From positions 1,178,001 through 1,242,000 of the forward strand of contig NZ_CAAHFB010000001.1 in assembly GCF_900880625.1 (NCBI RefSeq): DNA of 64,000 nucleotides. Reading direction: 5' to 3'. The DNA is from Halorhabdus rudnickae. Lineage in GTDB: Archaea; Halobacteriota; Halobacteria; Halobacteriales; Haloarculaceae. Positions 3,672 to 15,790 of this stretch are shown one piece after another; within the stretch, counting starts at the first letter, position 1; the number at the start of each line of letters is the position of its first letter. Position numbers and translations under genes: made by a program. The notes below the pieces were generated by a model. It was not told the DNA's origin, searched no databases, and was given only the letters and a program-made list of their open reading frames with translations.

Positions 3672-4568
3672 ATGGACATCGTCGTCTTCGGTGCCGGCAG
3701 CCTGGGAAGCCTGATCGGGGGGCTGTTGGCCCAGGAGCATCCGGTCACACTGGTCGGACGAGAGCCCCACGTCCGGGCGGTCAACGAGTCGGGACTGACT
3801 GTCACAGGGGACATCCAGATCGAAGTCAGCCCCGTCGGTCGGACGACCATCCCGGCGGAAGCGGATCTGGTGATTGTCACCGTCAAAGCCTACGACACGC
3901 CGACCGCCGCCGCGGCGTTGTCGGACTGTGCGTGCGACGCCGTCCTCTCCCTACAGAACGGCATGGGCAACGAGGAGACGCTCTCTGAGGCGCTCTCGGC
4001 GGATGTCCTGGCGGGGACGACAACCTACGGCGCGATCCAAGACGAACCCGGGACTGTCCGGTGTACCGGCCGTGGCGAAGTCGTCATTGGGCCACCCGAC
4101 GGCGGATCGAGTTCACTGGCCGACCGGATCGGCGGGGTATTCGAAGCGGGGGGGATCGAAACCACCGTCGCGACGGACATGCCCCGCCGCACGTGGGAAA
4201 AACTCGCGATCAACGCCGGAATCAACGCCACGACTGCGCTGGCGCGAGTCCCGAACGGCGCGCTCGCCGAAAAGCCAGCGATGGAGGTGGCTCGCCGCGC
4301 CGCCTGCGAGACTGCCCGGGTCGCACGGCAAGAGGGAGTCGATCTCGACGACCGAACAGCCGTCGACGCGCTCGAAGCGGTGGTCGAAGCGACGGCGGAC
4401 AACCGGTCTTCGATGTATCGCGATATCGAGCGTGGTCGTCGGACGGAAGTGGCATCGATCAACGGCTACGTGGCCGATCACGACGTAAAAACGCCCGTCA
4501 ACGCGACGCTCGCAGCGCTGTTGGAAACGTGGGAACGGGAGAACGTCAGGAGAAGCGAGCCGATCTAA
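3672..4568 (+). CDS. panE: 2-dehydropantoate 2-reductase (ketopantoate reductase family)
   Basis: 298 residues, the usual length. The NADP-binding N-terminus is VVFGAGSLGSLIGGLLA. The family motifs TVKAYDT, LQNGMGNEE, the catalytic-lysine segment RTWEKLAINAGINATTAL and the C-terminal SSMYRDIERGRRTEVASINGYV are all present. It reduces ketopantoate to pantoate; in archaea this feeds pantoate kinase and phosphopantothenate synthetase in CoA synthesis. Its 3' end overlaps the convergent NifU-like gene by 4 bases. Confidence 0.9.
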   Translation: MDIVVFGAGSLGSLIGGLLAQEHPVTLVGREPHVRAVNESGLTVTGDIQIEVSPVGRTTIPAEADLVIVTVKAYDTPTAAAALSDCACDAVLSLQNGMGNEETLSEALSADVLAGTTTYGAIQDEPGTVRCTGRGEVVIGPPDGGSSSLADRIGGVFEAGGIETTVATDMPRRTWEKLAINAGINATTALARVPNGALAEKPAMEVARRAACETARVARQEGVDLDDRTAVDALEAVVEATADNRSSMYRDIERGRRTEVASINGYVADHDVKTPVNATLAALLETWERENVRRSEPI

Positions 4569-4933
4569 AACGGGGCACTCGGCCCCTCGTCACTCTTGCC
4601 ATCGTCGACGCTACCACCCCGGGAGTCGCCCGGTTGGGCACCGCCGCCCATACCGCCCATACCACCGCCGTCCATGCCAGTGTTGGCGTGAACGGTGTCG
4701 ATTTCGGGGATCTCCTTGGTCATACGGGACTTGATCGCCTGGACTGTCATCGGCGAGATGCCACATCCGCTGCAGGCCCCGCCGAGCATGATCGTCACCT
4801 CGCCCGTCTCGGGATCGAGATCCTGGATGGCCGCACTTCCCCCGTGCATCTGGATCTGTGGGAAGTTCCGTCGCAGGAAGTTCGTGACGCGTTCCTCGAG
4901 ATCGGAGCTTCCGTCCTGTGTCTCTGTGCTCAT
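4565..4933 (-). CDS. NifU C-terminal-domain (Nfu-type) iron-sulfur scaffold protein
   Basis: 122 residues. The NifU-like domain spans about residues 10-80 and contains the CxxC motif A-C-S-G-C-G-I-S, expected to bind an Fe-S cluster between subunits. Other family features are the FLRRNFPQIQMHGG start of the domain and MTVQAIKSRM after the cysteines. The tail is Gly/Met-rich (GGGMGGMGGG) and disordered. I start at the ATG at 4933, as in-frame upstream sequence lacks coding character. Likely role: Fe-S cluster carriage to apoproteins. Confidence 0.88.
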   Translation of the reverse strand: MSTETQDGSSDLEERVTNFLRRNFPQIQMHGGSAAIQDLDPETGEVTIMLGGACSGCGISPMTVQAIKSRMTKEIPEIDTVHANTGMDGGGMGGMGGGAQPGDSRGGSVDDGKSDEGPSAPF

Positions 4934-5018
4934 GGCTTGATTTAAGTTGGCGGTGGGAGCGTTTAGGCCTTTGGTATCCGACAATACCCTACCACGAGAG
5001 GGGCACCGAGAAACTCGA

Positions 5019-5384
5019 TCAAGCCAGGTCGAAAACGTCACTCAACTGGTCGGCGATCTCGGCACGGTAGTCCTCGAGGGCGGCCTCGACGCGCTTGCGG
5101 TCGCGATCCGGCAATCGATCGGCGGCGTCGTCGGGCACTTCGATCCGGAAATCGCCGGCATACTCTCGCGAACTGTGTCCGCTGGCGTCGTCTCCGGAGG
5201 GTTGGGCCTCACTCCCCTCGTAGAACGGCTCGCTCTCGCTGAGGATCGCCTGGTCGATCGCGTGTACCAGCTCCGAGTCGTAGCGCTCGCTCATCGCCTC
5301 GAAGGCCCTGGTGTATGCCTGCTGGAGTTCCGTAAAGTAGTGTTCGTACTTGTCCTCGAAGCGGTCCGGATCGAAATCACTCAT
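5019..5384 (-). CDS. DUF5783-type haloarchaeal protein
   Basis: 121 residues with no characterised function. The N-terminal half (FDPDRFEDKYEHYFTELQQAY, then YDSELVHAIDQAILSESEPFYEG) matches my memory of DUF5783. A variable linker follows, then a helical C-terminal part (PDRDRKRVEAALEDYRAEI). Acidic, no signal peptide. Start taken at ATG 5384; ATG 5387 one codon upstream is equally possible. It precedes the NifU-like gene on the same strand with an 85-base gap. Confidence 0.75.
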   Translation of the reverse strand: MSDFDPDRFEDKYEHYFTELQQAYTRAFEAMSERYDSELVHAIDQAILSESEPFYEGSEAQPSGDDASGHSSREYAGDFRIEVPDDAADRLPDRDRKRVEAALEDYRAEIADQLSDVFDLA

Positions 5385-7716: not shown

Positions 7717-7769
7717 ATCAGTGGGGACGGACGAACGAGGGATAAATCTATGCTCGAAATCCGGGGGTC

Positions 7770-8458
7770 GTGTTTAGTTTAGCGAGTTCGACCATGTTGC
7801 GAAGCTTTGAAGCCACTTTTCGGCTGTTTCCGGTTCGGCGTGGCTGAAACAGTTTGAGAACGAAGAGGTACGGTATTTCACCTCACGGAAGATACGTTTG
7901 ATGCTGTTCCGATTTCCGCTGCGTTCAACCTGAAATCGGAGCCCTGCTCGTTGCAGTGCAGCTTGGAGATGTCGGGCTCCATCGACGAGAAACACAGCGT
8001 TTTCGACATCATATTTCTCGCGGAGTTTCTGCAGGAACATCTCAGTCAACGCGGTCGTAGTCGTCGAATACAGCCGAATATGCAGTAATTTGCTCGTTTC
8101 TGGATTCGCTGCAGCATACAGCTAGTACTGCTGATCGTTGATTCGAACCACTGTTTCGTCGAGTGCGATCTGATCCGGTTCTTTCCCAGTGCCTGGCTGT
8201 AAATCGGTCTTTTGAGCCCAATCGTGGATTGCTTTCCGCAAGCGTTGGACACCGAACTTATCAAGTTCCGAAATTGCATTCGAAAGTGATAGTCCAGACA
8301 AATACAAGCGAATACCAAGCTCCACCAGCCGGCGCGGTGTCCGTTCGTGCTCCACAAATTCTAACTCGATTCAATCGCTACTGCCGCTGAAGCGGGCGAT
8401 CTCGATCATGAATCATCCGACAATCACCACGCCTCACGTTTCACGCGCAACTAAACAC
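7770..8458 (-). mobile_element. degenerate IS6-type insertion sequence (ISH14-like)
   Basis: About 690 bases, bounded by short imperfect terminal inverted repeats that share GTGTTTAGTT (7770-7779) with its reverse complement AACTAAACAC (8449-8458). It carries one transposase pseudogene that fills the element, the layout and size of haloarchaeal IS6 elements. I see no clean 8-base target duplication, so the copy is old or the ends have drifted. Confidence 0.8.
7774..8409 (-). pseudogene. IS6-family transposase with two nonsense codons
   Basis: A single open frame of 211 codons from ATG 8409 is broken by two in-frame stops and nothing else. Codon 13 is TGA (in ...FSGSSD-stop-IELEFVEHERTP) and codon 96 is TAG (in INDQQY-stop-LYAA). 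In the family both positions are Trp (DWIELEF; QQYWLYAA). The DDE core is recognisable: IALDETVVRIN, then VFLVDGARHLQ, then ERSGNRNSIKRIFREVKYRT. Two independent Trp-to-stop changes without frameshifts mean the protein is not made full length. Confidence 0.85.
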
Positions 8459-8619
8459 CGCCACAGAATTGCAAAATCATAATCCTATATCTTGATATCC
8501 CACTTGGGCACTTCTGGAGTTGCTATACGATATACTACGTGGCTCAACTATACTTGAGCCTGAATCGACTGGGCGTACGATCACCTATCAATTTATGCCT
8601 CAGGTTTGAAGCGAGTTCT
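8459..8619. other. promoter region of the MazG-like gene
   Basis: 160 bases between the IS remnant and the MazG-like gene, more AT-rich than the chromosome. TATACGATATACTA near 8524-8537 and CTATACTTGA near 8548 are candidate TATA elements. An in-frame upstream extension to 8539 lacks coding character. Confidence 0.35.
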
Positions 8620-8988
8620 ATGTCTGATGACTGGGATCACCTAACGGAACGCTACGCAAAGTTTGTCTCTGACCGCGACTGGGACCAATTCCACACACCG
8701 CAGAACCTAGCGATTGCGGCCTCAGTTGAAGCCAACGAGTTACTCGAGAATTTTCTCTGGTTCGAAGACCCCTCAAGTGAATCTGTTCAGGAAGACGATG
8801 AACTGATGGCGGCGGTCCGTGACGAGATGGCAGACGTAATGATCTACATGATTGGACTCGCTAATCAGCTCGATATTGATCTCCAGGCTGCTGTAGCTGA
8901 GAAGATAGAGCGCAACGAGGAGCGATTCGATGAGGAACGCGTCGATGAAATCAATGAATATCTCACCGACTGGCAGGAGGATGATTAA
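8620..8988 (+). CDS. MazG-like nucleotide pyrophosphohydrolase
   Basis: 122 residues, all-alpha. It resembles the short RS21-C6/MazG-like group, which hydrolyses (d)NTPs such as dCTP to the monophosphate. Visible motifs are WDQFHTPQNLAIAASVEANELLE, giving the first acidic metal-binding helix, and DEMADVMIYMIGLANQLDID, giving the second E..D pair. It is the first gene of the accessory island. Its stop overlaps the convergent nuclease gene by 4 bases. Housekeeping nucleotide clean-up is possible, but small MazG-like proteins also occur in phages and defence islands. Confidence 0.85.
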   Translation: MSDDWDHLTERYAKFVSDRDWDQFHTPQNLAIAASVEANELLENFLWFEDPSSESVQEDDELMAAVRDEMADVMIYMIGLANQLDIDLQAAVAEKIERNEERFDEERVDEINEYLTDWQEDD

Positions 8989-10091
8989 CCGGTGATCGTG
9001 TGGAGACGTTCCATTGACTCTGGGAACCCTTTTATCTCGTACTCATCGGTCCAAAAGGTGTAGACCCCGTGTGATTGGAGATGCTGTAGAAACTGGGCAT
9101 ACTCCTCTGACGGTTCGCTGGTTAGAACCAAGCACTTCGTCAGCTCTTTTTGCTTTCGCTTAGGGATACTATGAACTTCGAAGTAGCTGTACTCTTCTAA
9201 CTGTCCCAGTGCTTTTCGAATCTGATCTTCTTGATTGCCGTCGTGAATGGACTTCGCTTCTGCGAGGACGATATGTGTATTGTCGGATGCCAATATATCA
9301 CTGTATTTCGTCTCTCCAGTCTCAAATCCAGCATTCAGAAGCTCGTCTTCGAAGGTATCGAGCGAGTGTTCGTGCTCCATCCACCCGCTCATCGTTTCGT
9401 CGATCGATGATTCGTAGGTCACCGTCGACGTAGTGCTGCTGTCGGGTTCGAGATCGCGATCTCGCTTTCGAGAGCGTATCTTTGAGGTTCGCTCTGAATC
9501 TCTGTCCGCCTGTGTTGAGCTTTCGTCCGTATCGTGCTTTTCGGGAGCTACACCCTGAATTCGTTCGAGCAGCAGTGGGAAGAGCTTCTCTGGTTGGCTG
9601 ATGTTCGTCGGCGAACCCTGGGCTGGGATTCGATAGTTCGCCCTCTCATCCATTTCGCCGAAGGAAATCTTGCTTTGGTCAAGCCCCTTGATGTCCTCAA
9701 CCATCTCTTCCTTCGATTTCTGTTTGACCGGGGTGTCTCTAATCTCAGTCGTGTCTCCGAACCAGTGGATCTCAGAGAAGTGTACAAGATAGGGGTACTC
9801 TCCGTTGTAGTGTACTTCCTCCCACCAGGCTGGTTCGTCTTTCGTACTCTTAGCACCGACTTTACCCAATCCTATAACGCCTTTCCCGACGTCACGAACC
9901 TGACTCGGTGGGACATCCAGAAGCCTAGACGCAGAGGCATGGAAGAGAAAAATCTCACCTTCTTCGATCTCTTCCCACGCTTCCTTCTTGTCTGGTCGGA
10001 AACCCCAATATTCCGTGTGGTATGTTGTCACCCAATGTTCAATCGGACCAGTGAGTTTCCTGAACCCGCCGTGGAGAACACGCTCGTCCAT
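8985..10091 (-). CDS. EVE/PUA-like region fused to a PD-(D/E)XK nuclease domain
   Basis: 368 residues in two parts. Residues 1-180 resemble an EVE/PUA-type base-reader fold (GEIFLFHAS, GKGVIGLGKV, YPYLVHFSEIHWF, YRIPAQGSPTNIS). A charged linker of about 185-235 follows. Residues 236-368 look like a restriction-endonuclease fold with D265 in TKYSDIL, then E278-A-K280 in VLAEAKS, and the helix QIRKALGQLEEY at 290-301. EVE domains bind modified bases and are often fused to nucleases, so a modification-dependent restriction enzyme is my inference. The domain calls are by eye. GC content is lower than in core genes. Confidence 0.65.
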   Translation of the reverse strand: MDERVLHGGFRKLTGPIEHWVTTYHTEYWGFRPDKKEAWEEIEEGEIFLFHASASRLLDVPPSQVRDVGKGVIGLGKVGAKSTKDEPAWWEEVHYNGEYPYLVHFSEIHWFGDTTEIRDTPVKQKSKEEMVEDIKGLDQSKISFGEMDERANYRIPAQGSPTNISQPEKLFPLLLERIQGVAPEKHDTDESSTQADRDSERTSKIRSRKRDRDLEPDSSTTSTVTYESSIDETMSGWMEHEHSLDTFEDELLNAGFETGETKYSDILASDNTHIVLAEAKSIHDGNQEDQIRKALGQLEEYSYFEVHSIPKRKQKELTKCLVLTSEPSEEYAQFLQHLQSHGVYTFWTDEYEIKGFPESMERLHTITG

Positions 10092-10187
10092 CGCTTGTCA
10101 TTATATCTCAGATTCACTTAATATCCCTGATGAAAGGGGCCTATAGGCGATCAATCGATATGGTCCATACGAGGTTGAGACTTTCAA

Positions 10188-10787
10188 TCAATTGAACGCC
10201 ACGTCCTCAAACTCTCGATTCACCACTTCGGCTGTCGGCGCGTTCGGGTACGGCTCCACCGCCGAGAACGACGACCACCCACCAACTTCCATTACCACAC
10301 GCGGATTCATCCGCTCGCGGACCAGCAAGGTCTGGGCATAGTAGCGCCGGAGATCGTGACTCGACACCTTCTGCCAGTCGGAGTCGCCGGTCTCTTCTGC
10401 GACGTGTTCAGCGGTCGCCTTGACCCGGCGCTGCACAGAGCGCTCGCTCAGGTCGACGATCGGTTCGTCGCGATCGATGTTCTCAACGTTGGCGTAACGA
10501 AGTAGCTCACTCTCAACCTGCTCGGGAAGGTAGGCGTCGCGAGGCTTCCCACCGCTTCCTTCGGTGTCCTTCCCCTTGGGAACGCGAAGCCGGGCGTGAC
10601 CATCGACGTGTTTGATGTGCTCCGGGTGGATCTGTGGGATCTCGAAGGAGCGGAGTCCGACTTCACCGCCGAGCTGGATAATTAGGGAGTCTCGGTAGCT
10701 CCCTGCGCCCTGCTTGAGGGTCTTGTACTCCTCCGGCGTGAGCCAGCAGCGATACGAGTGGTGGTTCTCGTTGCGCTCGATTCGCAT
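10188..10787 (-). CDS. tyrosine recombinase / integrase of haloarchaeal (phiH1-like) type
   Basis: 199 residues. Catalytic residues are R46 (GEVGLRSFEI), probably K72 in the beta-hairpin PKGKD, H144 and R147 (SSHDLRR), W171 at the second His/Trp position, and nucleophile Y180 (AVEPYPNAPT). The protein is nearly all catalytic domain; the N-terminal SAM-like core-binding domain is absent or very short, as in many small haloarchaeal integrases. It lies 4.9 kb from tRNA-Thr, not next to it. It may excise or integrate the surrounding island, or be a leftover. Confidence 0.85.
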   Translation of the reverse strand: MRIERNENHHSYRCWLTPEEYKTLKQGAGSYRDSLIIQLGGEVGLRSFEIPQIHPEHIKHVDGHARLRVPKGKDTEGSGGKPRDAYLPEQVESELLRYANVENIDRDEPIVDLSERSVQRRVKATAEHVAEETGDSDWQKVSSHDLRRYYAQTLLVRERMNPRVVMEVGGWSSFSAVEPYPNAPTAEVVNREFEDVAFN

Positions 10788-11037
10788 GGATAGTTCTCAA
10801 TGACAAGTCCGACATCATAAACCACCGTTTGGCCCGAACTGGGGCTCTTCAGACTCCAATAGCGGGCTTCCGTGTCGTAGTTCTTGGTCAACTACGAGAT
10901 ATAAATATCACTCGTCCCAGGATGCGTCGGATCATCACCACTATCTCCGAGCCTTAAACGAGATTTATGTAAATTAGTGGTTCAGTCGATCCAGTCAAAT
11001 GCAATCTTTTTCAATTAGCCGGAATATTGTGTAGGAA
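10788..11037. other. intergenic region between integrase and STAND gene
   Basis: 250 bases of mixed composition, becoming AT-rich toward the STAND gene. It contains the divergent promoters; TATAAATATC near 10910 and TTTATGTAAATT near 10964 are candidate TATA elements. No gene or att repeat recognised. Confidence 0.35.
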
Positions 11038-13806
11038 ATGATTGAGACAGCTATTGCGGCGGGCATCGCGGCCAATGTCCTATATGAGGTGGGAAAGAAG
11101 TCTCAACAAGAACTCAGAGAATTAGTTAATGGTGAGATATTTTCCACCCCGATGTTTGCACTTCAAGAAAAATTCGAAGAGTCGCTAGAAGAAGCCCTAA
11201 AAGACGAGCTGTCGGAAATCGACAAAATTCAGGATACCGATATTGAGGACCACTGGGAGGGAATTATCGAGAACATAAACTCAATTGATCCAGTATTTCT
11301 GAATAAAGAAGATGCAATAGAGAACATAGCGGCTAGCGTGGTCACCGGGTTAGGGTTCAGCAATGAGGAAGATAATATTGTTCGAGGTAAAATAGAGATA
11401 GCAGTCGTACGAGCATATCGGGAAGCAGTAACGGGCTTCTTGCAACGAGTGGAGGAAGAAGAATTGAGTACTGAATTTCAGAATAGAGCAAACCTTCGTA
11501 TTACTGAAGGAGTCAGTAAAATTGAAAAGAATCTACGGAGAGTTGAAACCAGGATAATTCAGCAAAATGATTCAAGAATCAAAAACGAGGGCTTCGTTAG
11601 ATTTGACCCCCTATATTTCAGAAGAAAAGAACCAGATCAGCCACAGATAGCTTGGCGGCGGGGCTTCAACCATTTTGAAATAGAAGCGGGTTACGCTATC
11701 AAGCGGGAACGTCCTTTGGAGGAAGAGAGTGAGCGTATAGATGTCACTGAAGATATTATCCAGCAGCTTGAAAATGATGAGGAGGTTGTAGTCTTAGGAG
11801 AACCAGGTTCAGGAAAAAGTACAATATGTAAACAAGTAGCAAATGAGTGGCACGAAAATAACCCAGGAAGTGTATTTTACCGTCAAAGTGATTCAGTAGT
11901 CCCCTTTAGGAACCCAGGAACACTAATAGAGGCCATCAATGCGACAGATGAGGATGTCCTAGTTGTTGTAGAGGATGCAGTGCATGAGGATGCGGCTATA
12001 TTATTCGAATTGGTTAGCGAGTTTCAGCACGACTCAAATGTTTCTTTCTTATTTGATGCTCGTGTTAGCCAATGGAATAGTTCAGAGGATGCTTTTGGAG
12101 GACCAGAAATTGCGAATCTTAAGTCCAACGTGCAGCCAGTTCGCGTACCTGAGTTGGATGTACGCGAATGCAGTCGAATTATCGAACATTTTGAGGATCT
12201 AACGGATGAAGAGATAGAGCGCTCAGCGGAGAGTTTGTATAAAGAGGTCAATGGTGGAGATTACGGTGATCTGCTTCTGCTGGCATACAAATTGACAGGT
12301 CCTGTAAGCACAAGTGGACAATATTCTGGAGAGATATCTGCATTTGAGTATGACGTCCACCAGTCATTTAACGATATCGGCCAAGCAGATGAATTGGAGG
12401 ATGTCCCTAAATTATTGAGACATAAAGTCGGAATTCTAGTCAATCTACTCAATGCGTCACGGCTACCTGTATCGAAAGGATTCATCCACTCAATCGCAAC
12501 GGAACCAGAAGAGCATTGGAGTGTGGAATCTGTCTTGGACTATTTGGAGGGCTCCGTCATAAGGAGTAATCAGGACGGGGTGGGATACAGAACATTCCAC
12601 GAACGCTGGTCTACCTTGTATTTGTCTCGTGCATACGACGAACTCGATATACGAGCCGTGAATATATTTGAAGACTGTATTGAAGCACTCATTCTCCTCC
12701 CAGAAAACGATGATAAAATTAAATCAATTCAAGAGTGGTTATCTGGAGATCAACCTGCTTTATCAAATATGCATGTAGCGCCTCAACAGTTCGCAGAATA
12801 TCTCACAAGACAAATCGGAAGAGTTGCAACTCGTAGCCCAGAATTATCTCCATTGTTTATTTCCTGTAATATATCCTTTTCTGAGACTGATTCCGTCGGA
12901 GCAGAGGTCAGCTGGGCCAGCAATATCGGTCTTTCTGCCGTTTACAACAGTAGATACAAGACAGCAGAGCAGGAACTGGAGAGAGGTATTGAGGTGTTAA
13001 CTGCCTCGGGAGATGAAAATGAGTGGACAATGCAGAGAAGAGCTGTCCTTCTTGAAAACCTGGGCATTGCTAAAAGGAAGCAAGGGAAACTACGAAAGAG
13101 CTGGGATTGTCATAAGCAGAGTCTGTCAATTTCCGAAGAATTAGATAATACGATTGGGATTGCAGAAAGTCTCAATAATTTAGGTTCAATAGAGGTGACT
13201 CGTGGGATATGGGACAATGCGAGGTTTTCGCTCCAAGAGAGTCTAAAGTTAAAAAGGAGGGAAGGATATCAAAGTGGTATACCATCTACTTTAGATAATC
13301 TTGGTATAGTTGAAAGGCATGAGGGGAATATAGAGAAGTCCAAGGAACTCCATAAGGAGGCACTCTCAATTGAAAAAGAGCTGGGCCGGGATCATGAAGT
13401 AGCTAAGACACTGGTGAATTTGGTGCTTGCGTTAATTGAGCAAGGAGATCTCAAGTCAGCTGAAAATAAGTGCAAAAAGGCACTAAATATATTTCAAGAA
13501 ATTGATGATGACCACGGAATTGCCCAATGCGTGGGCAACTTGGGACTTCTGAATCAAAGAAGGGATGATAATAGAGAGGCCATTAAGAAATTCCGAGAGT
13601 CCTTTGAGAAATTTATTGAATTAGGCTCAACTGATGAGGCAATTGACACAGCCAGAAATATCGCTTTGCTTTATGAGGAGCAAGATAACAGAGAGAAGAT
13701 TGTAGAATGGTGTGATAAAGGTGAGAAATTGGCCGAGTCTCTAGGCCAAAATCGACAAGGAGATATTTTTAGGAAGATTCGGGCTGGGGATTTTGAACGC
13801 AGATAG
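11038..13806 (+). CDS. STAND-type NTPase with C-terminal TPR repeats (candidate antiviral sensor)
   Basis: 922 residues. Residues 1-200 are all-helical and unassigned. The P-loop is G254-E-P-G-S-G-K-S261, preceded by a hydrophobic strand (EEVVVL). The Walker B-like strand is VLVVVED at 307-313. SFLFDARVSQW (about 340-350) looks like a sensor strand with Arg. A helical/winged-helix-like arm spans about 370-600. Roughly 630-910 is a run of TPR-like units (NLGIAKRKQGKLRKSWDCHKQSL, NLGSIEVTRGIWDNA, NLGIVERHEGNIEKS). This order of effector, STAND ATPase and repeat sensor matches antiviral STAND proteins. The gene is strongly AT-rich with codons such as ATA and AGA, a clear sign of transfer. Confidence 0.8.
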   Translation: MIETAIAAGIAANVLYEVGKKSQQELRELVNGEIFSTPMFALQEKFEESLEEALKDELSEIDKIQDTDIEDHWEGIIENINSIDPVFLNKEDAIENIAASVVTGLGFSNEEDNIVRGKIEIAVVRAYREAVTGFLQRVEEEELSTEFQNRANLRITEGVSKIEKNLRRVETRIIQQNDSRIKNEGFVRFDPLYFRRKEPDQPQIAWRRGFNHFEIEAGYAIKRERPLEEESERIDVTEDIIQQLENDEEVVVLGEPGSGKSTICKQVANEWHENNPGSVFYRQSDSVVPFRNPGTLIEAINATDEDVLVVVEDAVHEDAAILFELVSEFQHDSNVSFLFDARVSQWNSSEDAFGGPEIANLKSNVQPVRVPELDVRECSRIIEHFEDLTDEEIERSAESLYKEVNGGDYGDLLLLAYKLTGPVSTSGQYSGEISAFEYDVHQSFNDIGQADELEDVPKLLRHKVGILVNLLNASRLPVSKGFIHSIATEPEEHWSVESVLDYLEGSVIRSNQDGVGYRTFHERWSTLYLSRAYDELDIRAVNIFEDCIEALILLPENDDKIKSIQEWLSGDQPALSNMHVAPQQFAEYLTRQIGRVATRSPELSPLFISCNISFSETDSVGAEVSWASNIGLSAVYNSRYKTAEQELERGIEVLTASGDENEWTMQRRAVLLENLGIAKRKQGKLRKSWDCHKQSLSISEELDNTIGIAESLNNLGSIEVTRGIWDNARFSLQESLKLKRREGYQSGIPSTLDNLGIVERHEGNIEKSKELHKEALSIEKELGRDHEVAKTLVNLVLALIEQGDLKSAENKCKKALNIFQEIDDDHGIAQCVGNLGLLNQRRDDNREAIKKFRESFEKFIELGSTDEAIDTARNIALLYEEQDNREKIVEWCDKGEKLAESLGQNRQGDIFRKIRAGDFERR

Positions 13807-13997
13807 GTGTCTTCGTCGGGTAATGCAGATTTGATTTGATTTGCTCTTAGGTGTGTCCCTAAGGGGACTTCACCAAAACACAGACTACTCTCTCACAGGA
13901 CTCCCCGGGGGGTGTTGGTACAAATTTCCGCTCAGAAAGGTCGATTTCTACCGCAATTCCCGTTGTTTAGACAGCGTTGCCACTAATTTGTCGCATC

Positions 13998-15632
13998 TCA
14001 TCTTAAGTACCGCCATGCCTCCGTAGTGTAGGATTGTACCTCGGTCGCATCGACTGATTCGTAGCCAGCATCCGTTTCCTGCTTGTACCGAACCGTCGCC
14101 ATCCGAAATCGCTCTGCGGGCATATCCGCACCAGTCCACAGCTCGTATCCTTCTCGTAACAGTCGACGTACCTCATCAACTGCACCGAATTCTAACCGGA
14201 GCGGGCCACTATCACGGTCCTGAAGGTCAATATCGTGCTTGGCTGCCCAAGCGATGAACGCACTAGTCGTTTCGTCGAGCCCCTTCTCAGCTGCTTCCAT
14301 CGCCTTGGCTCCGGCTTCAGCTGCGCGTCTTGTGGCTTCCTTGGCTTCTCTCACGGCATCGTGTACGAGATCGGCGATATACTTCGATCGGAGCGAAACA
14401 CTGCCATATTCGTGTTCTACCAGTTCGGGGATTTGATCGAGAGCTCGCCGAACGCTACCTGGATGCCGGTCTGCTTCTTCCGCAATATCTTTCGGACTCA
14501 CTTCACCGCCATCAGTGACTAGAACCTCCAATGTATCCCAAGCGGTTGGTGAAATCCCATCGGCAAGGTGCTTGATGACGACTGATTCCTGCCGGTGCTT
14601 GATCTGAGTGAAATCAAGCTCGACGAGATTTCGTTCTCGATCAGATTCGGCAGGTTGGAAATATGCGTCCTCAACGTAGGTCCCCATTCCGGGCCGGACT
14701 GGGAGACCTGCTTCCGAGAGAACACTGAGAAGTGTCTCCTCGAGTTCTTCGTTGAGTGTGTCGATATCCGCTTTCGATGCCCCCAGTGGCTCATCCCAGA
14801 AGGATCGCTGATACGATACGCCAACTTTCGGATGAGCTACCGAACGGTCGGAGTCGAGGCTGACCGCTTCTCGTGCGTAGTAATGTTTGATCTCCTTCGG
14901 AAGACCATGGTCCGGGAATGCTTCCCGGACCTGCTTTGGTCCGAGAGTCGTTGTATGATAGTATCCAGGTTGGTCTCTCCCTCTCTCGTCACTATCGAAT
15001 TGAACCAGCTTACGACGGCCTGAGCGGTCATTCTCAAGCAGGTGGCCTAATTGGGCAAGCGGACCATCGCGAGCATGTACTGAACCACTATCCTCCTCAT
15101 GAACGCGGACATAGCGTTCCGCATCCAGAATCGTCGAAAACTCGTGCGCCCTGAGGAAGTAATGACGGCTGATTCCTACAGACTCATCAGCAGATTTGAT
15201 GAGACTCAGATACTCCGTGAATTCGATATTCGAGCCTTGAATATGGATGTTTACGCCCTCATCGACACTATCGGGAATCGAGATCTCTTGTCCGTTCTCG
15301 CTTTCCATCCCCTGCCAGCGTGGAGCAATATGGGCGTGGAATGAGCGTTCTGCGATCGGATCTTCCGCGCTTTGGACGTGCAGATCGAACTCCCGCATCG
15401 ATTCGAGCTGGAATTCAGTACCCGAAGGAAGGTGGCTCCCAGGGTGCGCGAGTCCTGAATCCCGAGATGAGAGTGAAACGTCCCACTTCTCTCCGCGGTA
15501 TTCGAACGATCCGCGCTGACTGCCGTCTCCTTCCTTGATTCGACTATCGATGGCGAAGAACGGCTCCATGCCGTACCGTGTGAAGAGATAGTGAGCAGCA
15601 AACTCGTGGGGTGCAGTCTCGATCAGTTGCAC
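13998..15632 (-). CDS. haloarchaeal mobile-element protein with winged-helix domain (DUF7845-like)
   Basis: 544 residues. It opens with LIETAPHEFAAHYLFTRYGMEPFFAID, a start I associate with DUF7845-type proteins of haloarchaeal integrated elements and plasmids. A winged-helix part is visible at about 370-435 (AWDTLEVLVTDGGEVSPKDIAEEADRHPGSVRRAL). An alanine/glutamate-rich helix follows (AKEATRRAAEAGAKAMEAAEKG), likely a coiled coil. DNA binding is inferred from the helix-turn-helix. It starts 85 bases from the 3' end of tRNA-Thr and marks the right edge of the island. Confidence 0.7.
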   Translation of the reverse strand: MQLIETAPHEFAAHYLFTRYGMEPFFAIDSRIKEGDGSQRGSFEYRGEKWDVSLSSRDSGLAHPGSHLPSGTEFQLESMREFDLHVQSAEDPIAERSFHAHIAPRWQGMESENGQEISIPDSVDEGVNIHIQGSNIEFTEYLSLIKSADESVGISRHYFLRAHEFSTILDAERYVRVHEEDSGSVHARDGPLAQLGHLLENDRSGRRKLVQFDSDERGRDQPGYYHTTTLGPKQVREAFPDHGLPKEIKHYYAREAVSLDSDRSVAHPKVGVSYQRSFWDEPLGASKADIDTLNEELEETLLSVLSEAGLPVRPGMGTYVEDAYFQPAESDRERNLVELDFTQIKHRQESVVIKHLADGISPTAWDTLEVLVTDGGEVSPKDIAEEADRHPGSVRRALDQIPELVEHEYGSVSLRSKYIADLVHDAVREAKEATRRAAEAGAKAMEAAEKGLDETTSAFIAWAAKHDIDLQDRDSGPLRLEFGAVDEVRRLLREGYELWTGADMPAERFRMATVRYKQETDAGYESVDATEVQSYTTEAWRYLR

Positions 15633-15716
15633 GCCAACTCACCCCCGGCGATTGTAGATGCGCGGAGACGCCCTCATGGGGGGTTGTCGTTCCGGCATGT
15701 AAACCGAAAAGGGAGA

Positions 15717-15790
15717 GCCGGTGGGGGGATTTGAACCCCCGGCCTAATCCTTACGAAGGATTCGCTCTAGCCAGTCTGAGCTACACCGGC
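15717..15790 (-). tRNA. tRNA-Thr (anticodon CGT)
   Basis: 74 bases. The acceptor stem pairs GCCGGTG at the 5' end with CACCGGC at the 3' end. The D-arm (TAGCTCAGACTGGCTAGAGC), the anticodon arm AATCC-TTCGTAA-GGATT with anticodon CGT, and the T-arm with loop GTTCAAATC are all intact. There is no intron and no encoded CCA. The 3' end faces the accessory island on its left, the usual orientation for integration at a tRNA gene. Confidence 0.95.

Follow-up and report, generated by a model that had tools for sequence, protein, structure and literature searches.

A haloarchaeal EVE-PD-(D/E)XK fusion protein as a putative modification-dependent restriction endonuclease, with exchangeable readers on its nuclease family and a MazG-like neighbour

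One open reading frame of the window (the whole stretch of 64,000 nucleotides that was analysed) encodes a two-domain protein which, judging from sequence comparisons, is most probably a restriction endonuclease of the modification-dependent (type IV-like) kind that works as a single chain and independently of nucleotides. Its N-terminal half is a divergent EVE reader and its C-terminal half a PD-(D/E)XK nuclease (Table 1). Such an enzyme had been suggested by an earlier sequence-only reading of the same DNA, and the suggestion gained support from the settings in which the two halves recur. The EVE half is found in McrB-type AAA_5 proteins, and the nuclease half is found on SRA and SRA-wH (SRA plus winged-helix) readers, which argues for a predicted role in cutting modified DNA.

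Table 1 Features of the EVE-nuclease gene, its neighbours and the surrounding island (positions in the window)
Feature	Position	Strand	Basis or remark
Genomic island, ~7.95 kb	7762..15713	.	Empty site in relative, GC
MazG-like pyrophosphohydrolase (PF12643)	8620..8988	+	Pfam E 1.6e-11; ATG at 8620, where homologues begin
EVE-PD-(D/E)XK fusion protein, putative modification-dependent restriction endonuclease	8985..10091	-	368 aa
PD-(D/E)XK nuclease domain, residues 222-363; H240 E241 (helix), D265, E278-A279-K280, Q290-x-R292, G296-Q297	9003..9428	-	Alignments, hhalign
Low-complexity acidic/polar linker, ~residues 181-221	9429..9551	-	Length varies among homologues (alignment)
EVE (PUA-superfamily) reader domain, residues 11-151	9639..10061	-	hhalign, PDB profile search, alignment
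Short tyrosine recombinase/integrase, 199 aa, in island	10188..10787	-	PF00589 E 3.9e-12
tRNA-Thr (CGT), island border	15715..15790	-	

The open reading frame starts with ATG and lies on the strand and at the position given in the sequence-only reading (8985-10091, minus strand, 368 aa). The motifs named there were also located exactly: GVIGLGKV at residues 71-78, D265, E278 and K280 (with A279 between the last two) and QIRKALGQL from residue 290. The gene is present as a single copy in its genome, and its relatives come from Haloarcula and Halosegnis records and from other genomes of the same order. Seven full-length homologues from several genera shared 36-63 % identity with the window protein, and D265, E278, K280, H240, E241, Q290, R292 and Q297 were invariant across them. 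The motifs are thus more than chance, as the catalytic residues are invariant in the full-length homologues. Both halves of the gene family are under purifying selection (dN/dS of ~0.16 for the homologue pair L032 and L033, with the EVE and nuclease halves alike). When viral contigs and phage records were searched, no full-length relative of the EVE-nuclease was found. A distant bacterial viral protein (L078/L079, positions 4251-5315) has a nuclease-like helix/motif region, and a DNA methyltransferase-like gene adjoins it on the opposite strand.

A Pfam search with the 368-aa protein returned no family even at E = 1. Direct sequence searches of Pfam, PADLOC, NCBIfam and PDB gave nothing significant, and no Pfam, PADLOC or NCBIfam family scored above its cut-off. 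The domain names used here therefore depend on profile-profile comparison and not on database annotation. None of the libraries searched has a name for the EVE-nuclease family, so it will probably escape defence finders. AlphaFold models made from single sequences had a pLDDT of 35 (whole protein) and 43 (nuclease half), too low for a comparison of folds.

For the EVE half, a PF01878 search of its own genome gave no match, and neither did hmmsearch of this half against three haloarchaeal Pfam-EVE proteins. A profile-profile test was therefore made. When hhalign was run against 31 archaeal Pfam-EVE domains, a probability of 93.6 % (E 2e-7) was obtained, while 15 column-shuffled EVE alignments gave at most 1.1 %, the reversed alignment 0.15 % and Mrr_cat 0.1 %. 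The reader assignment of the sequence-only reading is upheld by this comparison, by which we classify residues 11-151 as a divergent EVE (PUA-fold) domain. The alignment brought the W ... WG ... GD ... features of EVE into register, with W20 and W29-G30 matching conserved EVE positions, and W20, G45, G74, G76, K84, W89 and E92 were invariant among 11 EVE-like domains. The sole match of a PDB search with the profile of 11 related domains was PH1033 (1wmm), an EVE-family protein (E 0.53). A trace of PRK00809 in the direct library search (12 bits, far under the cut-off) pointed in the same direction. The same EVE-like domain is present in about 25 larger haloarchaeal proteins (mostly 537-1215 aa), and those members that were scanned carry an AAA_5 (McrB-like) domain after it. 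Among EVE domains with a role in defence, the fusion to McrB is the most frequent setting (PMC7641849).

Characterised EVE proteins are distant from the EVE half (13 % identity in the hhalign alignment), and McrB relatives such as LlaJI read unmodified DNA via other domains (PMC12707154). Both points would fit a conventional or orphan restriction nuclease for unmodified sequence, in which the EVE-like domain would be a plain DNA- or RNA-binding module. We consider such an enzyme unlikely. The reasons are that W20 and the W29-G30 motif fall on conserved EVE positions, the EVE half is common to McrB-type proteins, the nuclease exchanges this reader with SRA and SRA-wH (see below), and the open reading frame list and Pfam showed no methyltransferase gene beside the EVE-nuclease in the window.

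The nuclease half, which had been assigned to the PD-(D/E)XK fold on the basis of its motifs, gave a moderate hhalign result against 28 Mrr_cat domains (55 %, E 1e-4; shuffled controls below 1 %), which supports the assignment. The D and (E/Q)xK active-site motifs of Mrr_cat (PF04471) are superposed on the D and (E)xK motifs of the window protein in this alignment. In contrast, the window nuclease was not recovered by Pfam Mrr_cat and forms a family of its own, in which H-E and QIRxAxGQxxEY segments are conserved. When 10 nuclease domains with differing N-termini were aligned, E278, K280, R292, G296-Q297 and E300 were found in all of them, and D265 and H240-E241 were kept in nearly all (the stretch is missing from one row, a fragment). 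Relatives showed weak matches to XisH, NERD, AHJR-like, UPF0102, HSDR_N and Hjc; most of these families belong to the PD-(D/E)XK clan. The Pfam scan of the window protein found no HNH domain and no AAA domain, and no McrC-like match was found among the neighbours scanned.

The same nuclease domain was found on SRA domains at L038, L040, L064/L039 and probably L065 (65 % identity to L040). The SAD_SRA matches in the SRA-nuclease proteins had E-values between 3.6e-5 and 0.03, and none of them reached the cut-off set by Pfam. At L042 it is joined to an SRA-wH region, a reader half with homology to HHPV4I (231 residues aligned at 30 % identity, E 2e-16). That restriction enzyme, from a haloarchaeal virus, has been tested experimentally and is m6A-dependent, a dependence for which the SRA domain itself was not needed (PMC10101028). 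An SRA neighbour alone is therefore no proof of modification reading. In a FastTree phylogeny, the SRA-type nucleases formed one clade (support 0.999), and the EVE-type L036 grouped with L041 (0.993), the bearer of the second reader. The L041 gene (positions 8933-10013) is interrupted; in it the same nuclease domain is fused to a reader of a second EVE-like type, with an APCSRE motif.

Reader exchange was also observed within one cargo slot. At one chromosomal site lie two proviruses whose structural genes are related (SNJ1-like packaging ATPase). In L036 the slot is filled by the EVE-nuclease together with a MazG gene, and in L040 the same slot is filled by an SRA-nuclease. The slot spans positions 8609-13169 in L036 and 8734-13200 in L040, where a partial copy of the preceding small gene follows the nuclease. 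Changing readers on a constant nuclease are typical of the modular build of modification-dependent enzymes, and this pattern gives the strongest argument for modification-dependent restriction by the window protein.

The readers exchanged on this nuclease are DNA readers, and PD-(D/E)XK domains with D...ExK are mostly DNases. These two points count against an RNA-directed enzyme or an abortive-infection effector, in which the EVE domain would read modified RNA and the nuclease would cut RNA or host DNA. RNA targeting or a part in cell death has been predicted for some systems of the EVE and McrB types (PMC7641849; PMC11090510). For the window protein we regard such an activity as very unlikely, somewhat more so than cleavage of unmodified DNA.

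In the favoured modification-dependent mechanism, the N-terminal EVE domain would flip out and bind a modified base of foreign DNA, as can be expected from the structure of VcaM4I, in which a flipped 5mC/5hmC lies in the EVE pocket (PMC7897488). The flexible linker would carry the C-terminal PD-(D/E)XK domain, which probably acts as a dimer; divalent metal ions would be held at D265 and E278, with K280 completing the site. The DNA would then be cut near the modified site, with a presumed antiviral effect. By analogy with VcaM4I, modified cytosine is the likeliest target base. Among the host's own genes are one for a PF00145-type C5-methyltransferase and several of the PF01555 (N4/N6) type. Not every methylated site can therefore be a target, and a broad 5mC specificity is uncertain.

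EVE-PD(D/E)XK fusions were predicted in 2020 as a class of modification-dependent restriction enzymes by Bell, Wolf and Koonin (PMC7641849). The window protein belongs to this already predicted class, with the same core architecture and the same predicted role. Both domains lie in one chain, and the genes are carried in mobile or defence contexts (the island in the window, provirus L036 and plasmid L063). The main text of PMC7641849 yielded neither a haloarchaeal member nor a MazG companion nor an SRA exchange. No description of reader exchange in one provirus slot or of the MazG partnership was found in the literature searched. On the Halosegnis marinus plasmid (L063), the homologue lies directly downstream of the genes for exonuclease VII subunits; a type I-B CRISPR-Cas locus and a helicase/PD-(D/E)XK pair are close by.

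Among the other known systems, VcaM4I (EVE-HNH, PMC7897488) has a similar layout, with an N-terminal EVE domain, a linker and a C-terminal nuclease in one chain (309 vs 368 aa). This likeness is one of architecture and not of direct sequence comparison, and VcaM4I differs in being bacterial and in having HNH instead of PD-(D/E)XK. HHPV4I (SRA-wH-HNH, PMC10101028) is linked to the window protein through L042, which combines an HHPV4I-like SRA-wH half with the window-type nuclease, and both are borne by mobile elements in haloarchaea; the window protein, however, has EVE in place of SRA-wH and PD-(D/E)XK in place of HNH. The EVE-McrB type IV restriction GTPases share the haloarchaeal EVE-like domain, but they use a GTPase motor and a McrC nuclease, whereas the window protein is short and single-chain and has no NTPase.

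The MazG-like gene and the nuclease gene are convergent and their stop codons overlap (TTAA, 4 bp shared). This tail-to-tail arrangement, with the MazG gene overlapping or abutting, was observed at four of the six independent EVE-nuclease loci (window, L002/L034, L036 and L063) vs none of the five SRA-nuclease loci. The ExxE and ExxD catalytic motifs are retained in the MazG-like protein. The close MazG subfamily (E < 1e-28) occurs in 15 of 384 genomes, and its members were also found beside EVE-like-HNH_2 genes at L178 (convergent, 4 bp overlap) and L183 (same strand, overlapping), an HNH_2 protein (L175) and a McrB-like AAA_5 gene (L174). The gene neighbourhoods and the retained motifs speak for a two-gene defence unit of the nuclease and the convergent MazG, a possibility that we raise tentatively and that would extend the restriction reading rather than compete with it. 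Within such a unit, MazG may strip modified or non-canonical dNTPs so that host DNA is spared the attacked base, or it may starve the virus of dNTPs. In either case the MazG-like partner would probably clear nucleotides from the cell's pool.

The literature search found no paper joining MazG with EVE or type IV restriction. The nearest remark found was that MutT-type pyrophosphohydrolases lie beside SauUSI homologues (PMC7641849), and the human dNTP pyrophosphatase DCTPP1 has a high affinity for dCTP and modified dCTPs (PMC7162842); both are consistent with a joint role of the two genes. Against it, convergent genes are not co-transcribed, SLFN-group-3 helicases also partner the same MazG subfamily (a wider partner choice), and L032/L033 and L035 carry the nuclease with no such MazG beside it. 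The genomes of these loci (G379, G239 and G022) were also without a match in the MazG search. MazG as an obligatory partner was thus ruled out by L032/L033 and L035. The SLFN-group-3 (DUF2075-type) helicase gene adjoins the MazG-like gene at L181, L182, L184 and L186-L188, and L188 also contains a short integrase resembling that of the window (10188-10787).

We also put forward, with similar reserve, a haloarchaeal modular kit that joins one PD-(D/E)XK nuclease to interchangeable EVE, second EVE-like, SRA and SRA-wH readers, together with an EVE-MazG two-gene system that would keep a modified nucleotide from host DNA or from the virus. Type IV enzymes are not known to come with a protecting methyltransferase, which raises the question of what keeps host DNA from being cut. 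If the proposal is true, type IV restriction would have a new form of self-protection, in which a modified-base reader nuclease is paired with a cleaner of the nucleotide pool. If MazG hydrolyses the modified dNTP that is read by the nuclease, the question of self-protection becomes directly testable and the base that is read would be indicated. The family is also a possible source of salt-tolerant modification-dependent nucleases to map DNA modifications.

In the window, both genes lie in a genomic island whose GC content falls to 0.43, compared with 0.60-0.67 outside. In a genome of the same genus (G271), the island is absent and its flanks (window positions 7761 and 15714) are 68 bp apart. 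The segment 7762-15713 was either inserted here or lost in G271, and insertion is favoured because of the low GC content and the integrase gene. No attachment-site repeat of at least 9 bases was common to both island borders in the stretches compared. In L032 and L033, which are from another family of the order, a tRNA-Thr(CGT) gene is also nearby. The island further contains a gene for a 922-aa nSTAND NTPase with TPR repeats (window 11038-13806, plus strand), likely a further defence gene. On the tRNA-Thr side, a DUF7845 protein is encoded (window 13998-15632, minus strand), and a 33 % identical homologue of it is found near the tRNA-Thr(CGT) gene in L032.
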